The notes beneath the pieces are model-generated. The model did not search any database and was not told the DNA's origin. It was given only the letters and a program-made list of their open reading frames with translations. A DNA stretch of 64,000 nt from Pseudomonadota bacterium (GTDB lineage Bacteria; Pseudomonadota; Gammaproteobacteria; Steroidobacterales; Steroidobacteraceae): positions 1 to 64,000 of the forward strand of contig JAJYUL010000003.1 of NCBI GenBank assembly GCA_021792555.1. Direction: 5' to 3'. Below, one piece after another: positions 44,358-48,281 of this stretch; the stretch's first letter is position 1, and every line of letters starts with the position of its first letter. The position numbers were made by a program, and so were the translations under genes.

Positions 44358-44468
44358 ACGGGCGCCCGGCCGCGGCCACGCGGCGGGGCGTGCGCGCCTT
44401 GCGGGAAATTACGTATTCCCGAAACAGCCCTCTCGGCCTCACCGTGCGCATCAGGACGGGCGCCGCGC

Positions 44469-44755: not shown

Positions 44756-45988
44756 ATGACAATCAATCAACGGCAGACGATGCGGGTGCTCGAGCGGCTC
44801 TGTCCGCTCGATGCGGATGAGCTGGCGGACACGGCGCTGCGCGCCGCCGGCAGACAGCGCTTTGCCGAGGAATCCTTCCGGCCCGCGCTCGAGCGGCTGC
44901 TCGCGGCGCTCGGGGCCGAGGCCGACCTCGGTGTCTTCGGCCAGTTCGCCGCGCGCTTTGACCTGCTGCGCTGCATGCGCAACGTGCTGCGCATGGACGC
45001 GGCCGAGGAACAGGATCCGGGCATCGCCGCGCGCAGCCTCGGCCGGCCCATCTTCATCACCGGACTGCCGCGCAGCGGCTCGACCTTCCTGCACTCGCTG
45101 CTCGCCCTCGATCCGGCCAATAACGTGCCGCGCAGCTGGCAGCTCATCTATCCGTACCCGCGGCGCGATGCCTGGTTCCCGGGCGATCACCGCCGCGCGC
45201 AGGTCGCCCGTCAGCTCGCGCTGTTTCGCCTGTTCTCGCCGGGCCTTGCCCGCATGCATCCGCTCAGCGCCGACTCCCCGCAGGAATGCACCGACATCAA
45301 CGCGCACGTGTTCCGCAGTCTGCGCTTCGACAACATGTACCGGATACTGTCCTACCGCGACTGGCTGGATGATCACGGGCACGCGCCGGCCTACCGGTTC
45401 CACCGCCGCTTCCTGCAGCACCTCGACGCGCAGGGGCCGGCCGGCCGGCAGTGGGTGCTGAAAAGCCCGGACCACGTGTTCGCGCTCGATGCGCTGCGCA
45501 AGGAGTATCCCGAGGCGCACATCGTCATGCTGCACCGCGACCCGCTGAAGGTCATGGCGTCGGTCGCCCGGCTGACCGAGATCCTGCGCCGGCCGTTCAC
45601 GCGCCGCCTGGAGCGCGCCGAGATCGGTCAGGAGGTGAGCGCGCGCTGGGTGCAGGGCGTCGAGCGCATGATGGCGTTCAAGGCCGGCGGCGAGAACGTT
45701 CTGCATCTGTATTACCGGGACATCGTCGCCGCGCCGATGCAAACCGTGGCCAAGCTGTACCGGCATTGCAGACTGACCTTGAGTCCGGCCGCCGAGACGC
45801 GCATGCAGGAATACCTGCGCCGCGTTCCCCGCGGCGGCTACGCCGTGCACAACCACAGTCTCGAGGCGTTCGGCCTCGAGCCGCTCACGCTGCGCGAGCA
45901 GTTCGCCCGCTACATCAACTTCTTCGAGGTGCAGCCGGAGCGGTCCCGCCCGAGCGCGAGCCCCGTGTTCAGCGCGAGACCGGCATGA
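44756..45988 (+). CDS. Sulfotransferase family protein
   Basis: This 410-residue PAPS-dependent sulfotransferase-like protein has the 5'-phosphosulfate loop PIFITGLPRSGSTFLHSLLALDP near residue 100 and the 3'-phosphate block MLHRDPLKVMASVARL near residue 260. KSPDHVFALDAL and the C-terminal YAVHNHSLEAFGL are typical of the Sulfotransfer_3 family. The acceptor is unknown; the HpnL-like and outer-membrane neighbours suggest a lipid. GAGGAGG lies ten bases before the ATG. Its stop overlaps the next gene by four bases. Confidence 0.9.
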   Translation: MTINQRQTMRVLERLCPLDADELADTALRAAGRQRFAEESFRPALERLLAALGAEADLGVFGQFAARFDLLRCMRNVLRMDAAEEQDPGIAARSLGRPIFITGLPRSGSTFLHSLLALDPANNVPRSWQLIYPYPRRDAWFPGDHRRAQVARQLALFRLFSPGLARMHPLSADSPQECTDINAHVFRSLRFDNMYRILSYRDWLDDHGHAPAYRFHRRFLQHLDAQGPAGRQWVLKSPDHVFALDALRKEYPEAHIVMLHRDPLKVMASVARLTEILRRPFTRRLERAEIGQEVSARWVQGVERMMAFKAGGENVLHLYYRDIVAAPMQTVAKLYRHCRLTLSPAAETRMQEYLRRVPRGGYAVHNHSLEAFGLEPLTLREQFARYINFFEVQPERSRPSASPVFSARPA

Positions 45989-46959
45989 GACGGGCGAGCG
46001 CACTGACGCTGCTGCTCGGCGTGGCCGCTCTGGTGGCGATCATCGCCTATGCCGGAGGGGCCGCGGTCGAGCAGGCGGTGCTGCGCGTGGGTATCGTCGG
46101 GCTGGTGCTCGTGGCGCTGATCCATCTGCCGGTGATCGGCACGACCGGCTCGGCGTGGTACGTGATCGGCGGGCAGTTGCCGGGAGCCTCGCCGTGGAAG
46201 TTCATCTGGGCCCGCTACGTCCGCGAGGCGACGGCGGAAGTGTTGCCGTTCTCGCAGCTCGGCGGGATGGTGGCCGGCGCCCGCACGCTGACGCTGACGG
46301 GACTGCAATCCCTGCCGGTCACCGCGACGCTGCTGGCGGATGTGATCATCGAGCAGCTGGCGAAGATCCCCTACGTGCTCGCCGGCGTGGTGCTGCTGCT
46401 GCTCGGCGGACATGCTGCGCCCGTGCGGCTGCTGGCGGCGGCGCTGCTGCCGGTCGGGGTGCTCGCTCTGCTCGTGAGCGCCGGGCGCAAGCGCGCCTCG
46501 GCGCTGCTCGGCCGCAGCGCCGAGGCGCTCGCGCGCCGCTGGCCGGCGCTGCGAGGGCAGGGCACCGCCTCGCTGCAGGGGCTGTTCGGGCGGCTGTTCA
46601 GGTGGGACCGGCGGACCCTGGGGGCGCTCGCGACCCACACGGCCGCCTGGGCGCTCGGCGCCGCGGAAACCTGGGTCGCCTGTCACCTGATGGGGGTGCA
46701 GGTCAGTCCTGCCGAGGCGCTGATCATCGACAGCCTGTTCTGCGGGCTGCGCACGTTCGGGTTCGCGGTGCCCGCGGCGCTCGGCGTGCAGGAGGCCGGG
46801 TACGTGCTGGTGTGCGCGCTGGTGGGCGTGCCGGCCGCGCCGGCCGTCGCCTTGTCCCTGGTGCGCCGGGTCCGCGAGCTGCTCGTGGGCGTGCCGGCGC
46901 TGGGTATCTGGCAGCTGGTGGAGGGCGGACGGGCGCTGGCGGGGCAGTCCGACAAGTAA
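45985..46959 (+). CDS. HpnL-like / lysylphosphatidylglycerol synthase TM-region family protein
   Basis: This 324-residue polytopic inner-membrane protein has about eight helices. FSQLGGMVAGARTLTLTG and the late VPAALGVQEAGYVLVCALVGVP are signatures of the HpnL/UPF0104 family, whose members are tied to hopanoid or lipid translocation. ATGA overlap with the sulfotransferase makes cotranslation likely. A lipid flippase role is an inference from the family. Confidence 0.82.
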   Translation: MRRASALTLLLGVAALVAIIAYAGGAAVEQAVLRVGIVGLVLVALIHLPVIGTTGSAWYVIGGQLPGASPWKFIWARYVREATAEVLPFSQLGGMVAGARTLTLTGLQSLPVTATLLADVIIEQLAKIPYVLAGVVLLLLGGHAAPVRLLAAALLPVGVLALLVSAGRKRASALLGRSAEALARRWPALRGQGTASLQGLFGRLFRWDRRTLGALATHTAAWALGAAETWVACHLMGVQVSPAEALIIDSLFCGLRTFGFAVPAALGVQEAGYVLVCALVGVPAAPAVALSLVRRVRELLVGVPALGIWQLVEGGRALAGQSDK

Positions 46960-47015
46960 TTGCGCGCGGCACGTTCGATCACCCCGATCGTCTCCCGAGC
47001 GCGCGGCATGCGCCC

Positions 47016-48281
47016 ATGAAGGGACTCACGCTTCGGCATGCGCTGCGCTGCGCACCCGCCGTGCTCGCCGTGGCGGGCCTCATCGGCACGGCACACGCGG
47101 CCGAACCGGCCAAGGTCGCATTCAACTGGCTCAATCCGACCACCTGGCCGGTGGTGCCGGTGCCGAACATCTCGGTCGATCCGACCAACGGCGTCACCGT
47201 GGGCCTCATTCCCACGCTGCTCGAGCATGACCGCCGCGGGCGCATCGTGCGCATCATCGCTCCGGACATCGTGCACAACGCGAACTTCGGCTGGGGCGGG
47301 CACATGCGCATCCTCGACTTCCCGTCGGCCGATACCCAGTGGTCGGTCGTGGCCGGACTGATGCAGCACGTCGAGAGCAGCTTCGATGCGCTCTACGAGA
47401 CCGGCCTGCTGCGCACGCGGCGCTGGTCGGAGAGCACGGAGCTCTCATACAACCGCAGCGGCACCGCACGCTTCTTCGGCATCGGCAACGAATCGGCGTA
47501 TGCGGATCAGAGCGTCTTCACCGATCAGCGCCTGCGGATGCAGGCGCACCTCGGCTGGAACCTCACCCACGCGTGGCAGGTGGCCGCCGTGCTGATGGTG
47601 CAGAGAGTCAGGGTGAGCGCCGGCCATCTGCCGGGCATGGTCTCGATCACGGAGCGCTTCCCGCAGGTGCGGGGCATGGGCACGACTCACGAGGTGCTCG
47701 AGCGGATTCTGGTGACCTACGATACGCGTGACAACATCACGATACCCACGCGCGGCGTCGATGTCGTCGTCTACGCCGGGGCCGCGAGCCGCAACGCGGC
47801 GCCCGACGGCTCGCTGTTCACCGAAGCCGGCGCGGACGGCCGCTTTTATTGGTCGCCGAAGCGCTCGCTCACCATCGCCGCGCACGTCGGTCTGCGCTAC
47901 ATGCTGTCGCTGCACGATGTGCCGTTCTGGGCGCTGAGCAGCCTTGGAGGCGACCGCAGCATCGTCGGCGGACGGGAGCTGCTGCGGGGGTTCGGCGAGG
48001 GGCGCTTCTACGACCGCAACTTGTTCGTGGCGAACATCGAGTTGCGCGAGAACGTGCTCTCGCTCAACACGCTCGGTACGCGCATCATCTTGCAGATCGC
48101 GCCGTTTTACGACACGGGCCGGGTTTTCGCGCACAGCTCGACGTTTCCCATCGACAAGCTGCACAACGTGGTGGGCGTCGGGTTCCGCGGCATCGCGGCG
48201 CCGTTCATCGTCGGATACGTCGACGTCGGCTACGGCAGCGAGGGGGCGGCCGTCTTCACCGGCATCAACTATCCGTTTTAG
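47016..48281 (+). CDS. Outer-membrane beta-barrel protein (surface antigen / D15-like)
   Basis: This 421-residue protein starts at ATG 47016 with a signal peptide (APAVLAVAGLIGTAHA). The rest is alternating beta-strand sequence with a DTRDNITIPTRGVDVVVYAG strand and an LGGDRSIVGGRELLRGFGEGRF loop like the RGF motif of the Omp85 barrel, and it ends in an aromatic residue (NYPF). There are no POTRA domains, so it is a barrel-only member. It follows the HpnL-like gene by 56 bases and probably completes the operon. Confidence 0.85.
   Translation: MKGLTLRHALRCAPAVLAVAGLIGTAHAAEPAKVAFNWLNPTTWPVVPVPNISVDPTNGVTVGLIPTLLEHDRRGRIVRIIAPDIVHNANFGWGGHMRILDFPSADTQWSVVAGLMQHVESSFDALYETGLLRTRRWSESTELSYNRSGTARFFGIGNESAYADQSVFTDQRLRMQAHLGWNLTHAWQVAAVLMVQRVRVSAGHLPGMVSITERFPQVRGMGTTHEVLERILVTYDTRDNITIPTRGVDVVVYAGAASRNAAPDGSLFTEAGADGRFYWSPKRSLTIAAHVGLRYMLSLHDVPFWALSSLGGDRSIVGGRELLRGFGEGRFYDRNLFVANIELRENVLSLNTLGTRIILQIAPFYDTGRVFAHSSTFPIDKLHNVVGVGFRGIAAPFIVGYVDVGYGSEGAAVFTGINYPF

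Follow-up and report, generated by a model that had tools for sequence, protein, structure and literature searches.

What would a sulfotransferase, an HpnL-family inner-membrane protein and a barrel-only outer-membrane protein be doing in a single operon? The three genes lie together in the first 64,000 nucleotides of contig JAJYUL010000003.1 (assembly GCA_021792555.1, from an uncultured gammaproteobacterium of the Steroidobacteraceae), the stretch that we refer to as the window. An earlier note, made from the sequence of the window alone, had suggested that they sulfate and export a lipid such as a hopanoid. After comparison with 119 genomes of relatives we lean, by a small degree, towards the prediction that the operon serves to modify a hopanoid, a bacterial lipid that resembles sterols, and to export it. 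The best-supported part is sulfation and flipping by the sulfotransferase (ST) and the HpnL protein, because ST co-occurs with squalene-hopene cyclase, ST homologues lie in hpn clusters, operons of the form hpnN-hpnL-ST exist, and the HpnL and barrel genes are paralogues of genes in the hopanoid island; the barrel, to which an outer-membrane step is ascribed, is linked to ST in one lineage only. The note's author knew of no described system with this set of genes; the families are known, but their combination and the product proposed for it seem to be new.

The sulfotransferase and its HpnL partner

The ST matches profile PF13469 (E = 1.4e-44; 153.4 bits, where 27 would suffice) and is homologous over nearly its full length to the PF13469 sulfotransferases of PDB entries 2zq5 (8.7e-54) and 2z6v (1.4e-38), with which it has the motifs for binding 3′-phosphoadenosine 5′-phosphosulfate (PAPS) in common. 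The 5′-phosphosulfate loop GLPRSGST occupies residues 103-110 and the 3′-phosphate motif RDP...S residues 261-269; G103, P105, R106, G108 and T110 of the former, and R261, D262, P263 and S269 of the latter, are invariant in 14 homologues. For the supply of PAPS the genome encodes an adenosine 5′-phosphosulfate kinase (PF01583, 237.8 bits). On sequence grounds the protein is identified as a PAPS-type sulfotransferase, with sulfation as its predicted activity. Unlike the window ST, PF13469 homologues at a distance comparable to that of 2zq5 and 2z6v have neither hpn nor HpnL partners.

Orthologues of the ST occur in 27 genomes of the genus, and the HpnL paralogue lies directly downstream in every one of them, with a 4-base overlap at 16 loci and a gap of 1-4 bases at 9 more. 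The surroundings of the pair vary (between prfC and valS with the barrel, near HpnN, near hpnIJKL, with a B12 radical SAM protein and a UppP-like phosphatase, or with a GT4-like glycosyltransferase), and the pair has therefore moved as a unit. Such constancy bears on the idea that the ST is a generic small-molecule (detoxification) enzyme whose arrangement arose by chance, as might be supposed from the large number of PF13469 members that often stand alone, 12 of them matched in one other genome of the genus. We consider this very improbable, given that the window genome has a single PF13469 match, that the overlapping arrangement with HpnL is conserved across 27 genomes, and that hpn linkage is specific to one ST clade. 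A chance neighbourhood was rejected on the ST phylogeny together with negative-control loci.

All 27 ST genomes encode squalene-hopene cyclase, some copies being fragments at contig ends. Within the genus, 27 genomes have both ST-HpnL and the cyclase, none ST only, 17 the cyclase only and 14 neither (Fisher p = 2.8e-5); over the 119 genomes the corresponding ST counts are 35, 1, 20 and 63 (p = 9e-15). These tests, like that on the barrel and HpnN below, ignore shared ancestry. At three loci (L056, L058, L060, in our numbering of loci) roughly 2-3 kb separate the pair from the hpnIJKL island, and at L052 and L053 HpnN (TIGR03480, 919 bits) is encoded directly 3′ of the pair. In other families of the order an ST homologue (36-42% identity) is found with hpnD, hpnG, hpnN, hpnA and ispA (L063, L064, L067-L071, L096-L099, L102), and linkage of ST to hopanoid genes was recorded at L063 and L067-L071 as well as at L056, L058 and L060. 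Two further families of the class have an hpnN-hpnL-ST operon (L116, L118), which stands apart from their main hopanoid islands (L126, L119). In a phylogeny of 41 ST sequences a branch, itself weakly supported, has every hpn-linked member on the same side; strong support (100/99) attaches to the clade that unites the ST of the window with those of the hpnN-hpnL-ST operons. More distant homologues from the class and phylum (27-32% identity) had an hpn neighbour at none of 13 loci in 13 genomes, and the ST at L117 (38% identity) has no hpn gene nearby, although its genome has hpnA.

We infer the hopanoid substrate of the ST from this gene company and co-occurrence, which raises the question of whether another lipid would serve as well. 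Instead of a hopanoid, the pair might sulfate and flip another isoprenoid or another lipid of the envelope (a quinone, polyprenyl-linked glycan or glycolipid, for example); its hopanoid company would then reflect shared precursors (farnesyl diphosphate, squalene) and a generic envelope function. A related mycobacterial enzyme, Stf3 (Rv2267c), sulfates a menaquinone, and the closest solved relatives, 2zq5 and 2z6v, are sulfotransferase-like chains; the loci beside a UppP-like phosphatase or GT4-like glycosyltransferase, and the wide separation of the ST-linked HpnL clade from island HpnL, would also suit such a substrate. The strict co-occurrence of ST with the cyclase argues against it, as do the ST genes within hpnD, hpnG, hpnN and hpnA clusters: ispA alone would fit any isoprenoid, but hpnA, hpnG and hpnN do not. 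The same holds for the hpnN-hpnL-ST operons, HpnN being a hopanoid transporter to the outer membrane according to PMC12583986, which cites Doughty 2011 and Kumar 2017. On balance we judge a non-hopanoid substrate unlikely.

Two genes found beside the ST in relatives may be mentioned here. A B12-binding radical SAM protein is encoded upstream of ST-HpnL at L048-L051 and L065; at L048-L051 its identity as HpnR, the hopanoid methylase, was rejected, for although related it scores 51 bits where 650 are required, and it is possibly another lipid-modifying enzyme. Adenine phosphoribosyltransferase is often encoded beside clusters with ST and hpnG (L067, L096, L097, L099), where it could salvage the adenine freed by HpnG from adenosylhopane.

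The second protein of the window operon scores 224.9 bits against TIGR03476 (curated cut-off 195.65) and also matches PF03706; several of its ST-linked orthologues fall under the TIGR03476 cut-off, at 162-191 bits. In the HpnL phylogeny all 26 ST-linked sequences form one clade (support 99) apart from island HpnL, which in the window genome is encoded at L035:17019-18002. The phylogeny thus places the window copy as an HpnL-family paralogue, not hpnL itself and not an orthologue of island HpnL. Sequence searches of the PDB with HpnL and the barrel returned no matches, and structure models were therefore used. The HpnL model (pLDDT 86.6) is closest to MprF, which accounts for five of its six top-ranked PDB matches (probability 1.00) and for four of the top five, these at TMq of 0.57-0.63 although with E-values of only 0.007-0.04; the modelled fold is of the MprF flippase type (LPG_synthase_TM), and the predicted activity is lipid translocation.

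HpnL marks hopanoid islands without an assigned function, which PMC12583986 states as not established. Another HpnL clade (support 100) lies in clusters with a CDP-alcohol transferase, phosphoenolpyruvate (PEP) mutase, phosphonopyruvate decarboxylase, aminoethylphosphonate transaminase and another barrel, in several cases attached to shc and hpnA (L109-L112). Several HpnL clades thus each stand beside a different set of head-group genes (hpnIJK, the sulfotransferase or the aminoethylphosphonate genes), and we propose that HpnL moves head-group-modified hopanoids. The phosphonate clusters (L086, L087, L095, L109-L112; for example L110:2413-11100) comprise genes for a CDP-alcohol phosphotransferase, HalD-like oxygenase, HpnL paralogue, NTP transferase, a PEP mutase-NTP transferase fusion, phosphonopyruvate decarboxylase, aminoethylphosphonate transaminase and Omp85 barrel, with shc, hpnA or hpnD attached in several genomes. 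From their gene content the predicted product is an aminoethylphosphono-hopanoid or some related phosphonolipid; an earlier study had already predicted hopanoid-linked phosphonate clusters, in Acetobacteraceae (PMC8776678). At L076, L077, L078 and L082 a third HpnL paralogue lies off the hopanoid island beside an HpnI-family glycosyltransferase, again a head-group enzyme next to HpnL.

Hopanoid genes of the window genome and the outer-membrane barrel

The window genome (draft, 3.5 Mb, 99% complete) has a set of hopanoid genes, including the cyclase (831.9 bits), HpnH (534 bits) and HpnI, HpnJ and HpnK above their cut-offs. Its island (L035) runs hpnB, barrel paralogue, hpnA, hpnG, shc, hpnD-like, ispA, hpnH, idi, hpnI, hpnJ, hpnK, hpnL; since it holds a barrel paralogue and hpnL, two of the three operon genes are paralogues of island genes. 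In nearly every canonical island of the genus hpnL is followed by a gene for a 289-aa protein (L035:17977-18843; L056, L058, L060, L104-L108), which has no Pfam or NCBIfam match and is a candidate for a new hopanoid accessory gene. HpnN is absent from the genome by profile search (best score 42 bits, cut-off 752) and is thereby excluded as its outer-membrane step. An MMPL-like gene on the island contig (contig 73, L128) has no similarity to the MMPL gene beside the barrel in L114.

The third protein of the operon matches the Omp85 profile PF01103 (E = 6e-16, 59.2 bits) from residue 121 onwards. No POTRA domain was matched in the profile search, and the first predicted strand, at residue 61, follows the signal-like segment after about 33 residues. 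The L6 motif LRGF occupies residues 323-326 and FxDxG residues 364-368, with R324, G325, F364, D366 and G368 invariant in 21 homologues. The barrel model is of moderate confidence (mean pLDDT 65.6), and its best PDB matches are the barrel domains of TamA and BamA (TamA, E = 1.4e-11). By sequence the protein fits the 'noNterm' class of barrel-only Omp85 proteins, a named class without assigned function (PMC4104836).

In the barrel phylogeny the ST-linked sequences form one clade (100/100), sister to the barrels of hpnA-hpnB islands. Of the 67 barrel genes, 48 have a cyclase or HpnL gene no more than 15 kb away. Among cyclase-positive genomes barrel and HpnN anticorrelate (2 with both, 43 with the barrel only, 5 with HpnN only, 5 with neither; p = 0.0013). 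The barrel follows ST-HpnL as third gene in only 10 genomes, in all of which the operon lies between prfC and valS where the contig permits a check. The linkage in relatives that the earlier note had named as a test therefore holds strongly for ST and HpnL (27/27), but for the barrel in this one lineage only.

The barrel might accordingly be an incidental neighbour of a functional ST-HpnL pair, with a role of its own in protein or other outer-membrane work and co-transcribed by position only, to which we give an appreciable though lesser chance. Its linkage to ST in a single lineage would be in keeping with this, as would the barrels without ST and the distant barrels that pair with TonB-receptor-like open reading frames (ORFs) in cyclase-negative genomes. 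Characterised Omp85 proteins act on proteins (PMC11116518), and a possible role of 'noNterm' members in membrane protein biogenesis has been suggested (PMC4104836). A bystander would, however, be unlikely to pair repeatedly with HpnL-family genes: the closest paralogues of the window barrel are hopanoid-island genes flanked by hpnA and hpnB, and a third barrel clade adjoins another HpnL together with phosphonate genes. The anticorrelation with HpnN is a further point against it.

Several observations weigh against a three-gene hopanoid operon as such. In the window genome the operon is outside the hopanoid island (contig 51 and contig 73, respectively), and some ST-HpnL loci adjoin the phosphatase, radical SAM or glycosyltransferase genes described above, with no clear hopanoid link. 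The branch that would give all hpn-linked ST of the order a single origin is weakly supported (37/6), and where other families of the order have an ST homologue within an hpn cluster it is without HpnL, so that the pairing of ST with HpnL is not obligatory. The barrel accompanies ST solely in the prfC-valS lineage, and it is found without ST in genomes G012 (L144, alone between prfC and valS) and G049 (L142, unlinked). Seven genomes have a barrel but no cyclase, which rules out a strictly hopanoid-specific barrel, and those that were read pair it with a TonB-receptor-like ORF. With ST linkage confined to one lineage, and with distant relatives that are paired with TonB-receptor-like genes, the barrel has the role that is the weakest part of the hopanoid proposal. 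These distant relatives (L138-L141, L145, L149, L150) lie directly downstream of an ORF of about 760-810 aa, judged TonB-receptor-like by eye, and several of their genomes have no squalene-hopene cyclase.

Layout of the operon

The arrangement described in the earlier note was borne out: the three ORFs are intact and co-directional (Table 1), ATGA at 45985-45988 is common to the ST stop and the HpnL start, and the barrel gene begins after a 56-base gap (46960-47015).

Table 1 Features of the operon and its upstream region, in window coordinates
Feature	Position	Strand	Basis
PAPS-dependent sulfotransferase, predicted (410 aa)	44756..45988	+	ORF; PF13469, PDB sequence matches, PAPS motifs
HpnL-family inner-membrane protein (324 aa), second HpnL paralogue of the genome	45985..46959	+	TIGR03476, PF03706, tree, model
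Barrel-only Omp85-superfamily outer-membrane protein (421 aa)	47016..48281	+	PF01103; signal-peptide-like N-terminus, without POTRA
14-base element GGAAATTACGTATT, candidate promoter or operator	44404..44417	+	Alignment of prfC-ST intergenic regions, 5 genomes

The operon is flanked by prfC on one side and by convergent valS on the other, with holC and pepA close by. A promoter and terminator scan gave nothing convincing on the operon strand. The upstream element GGAAATTACGTATT is invariant in the five genomes aligned, the rest of the intergenic regions being about 69% alike, and is a possible regulator or promoter site. In genome G048 (L040, L008) two in-frame stops break the ST orthologue, and the HpnL and barrel frames are open. 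A wide contig search returned only two near-identical contigs from metagenome-assembled genomes.

A proposed route and its relation to known systems

If the substrate is a hopanoid, the ST would act in the cytoplasm, transferring sulfate from PAPS onto a hydroxyl of a bacteriohopanepolyol, which could be bacteriohopanetetrol or its cyclitol ether, both predicted from hpnH and hpnIJK of the genome. The dedicated HpnL paralogue would then flip the lipid, by now anionic, into the periplasmic leaflet of the inner membrane, in the manner of MprF with aminoacyl-phosphatidylglycerol, and the POTRA-less barrel may help to put the lipid in, or pass it over, the outer membrane in this lineage without HpnN. 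Both the direction of flipping and the outer-membrane role are what we infer. More tentatively still, and as a possibility that we hold to be rather doubtful in its full extent, sulfated hopanoids would be made by a dedicated ST clade in several gammaproteobacterial families, with an HpnL flippase for head-group-modified hopanoids and a barrel exporter that replaces HpnN.

No sulfated hopanoid or hopanoid sulfotransferase was described in the open literature searched, subscription journals being outside its scope, and the operon therefore points to a testable new lipid. Sulfated hopanoids, if they are made, would be strongly acidic and could escape extraction and derivatisation suited to neutral and amino forms, and they would bear on hopane biomarkers and envelope resistance. 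An Omp85 barrel that handles lipid in place of protein would broaden the known roles of the superfamily.

Four further known systems invite comparison. Among Omp85 proteins, the 'noNterm' class and the TamA and BamA barrels have the same type of barrel as the window protein, with RG(F/Y) in L6 and FxDxG; the window barrel differs from TamA and BamA in having no POTRA domain and in its neighbours, which are lipid head-group genes and not tamB or bam genes. The transporter HpnN, of the RND type, adjoins ST and HpnL in L052, L053, L116 and L118, so ST and HpnL accompany a transport step in those lineages; the window genome has no HpnN, and the barrel is there instead. The gpgSDF system of Pseudomonas aeruginosa and MprF modify a head group in the cytoplasm and then flip the lipid (proposed for GpgF, described for MprF; PMC12713373), a logic that the first two steps proposed here would follow, although those systems act on phosphatidylglycerol with glucosamine or amino acids, have neither sulfotransferase nor barrel, and include in GpgF an activity that is unverified. 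The canonical hopanoid island (hpnI-hpnK-hpnJ with hpnL), which encodes the pathway to bacteriohopanetetrol cyclitol ether, likewise sets cytoplasmic head-group enzymes before an HpnL-family gene, and in this lineage hpnA and hpnB of the island flank a barrel paralogue; in the window, by contrast, a sulfotransferase takes the place of those head-group enzymes, the operon is off the island, and its HpnL belongs to a separate clade.

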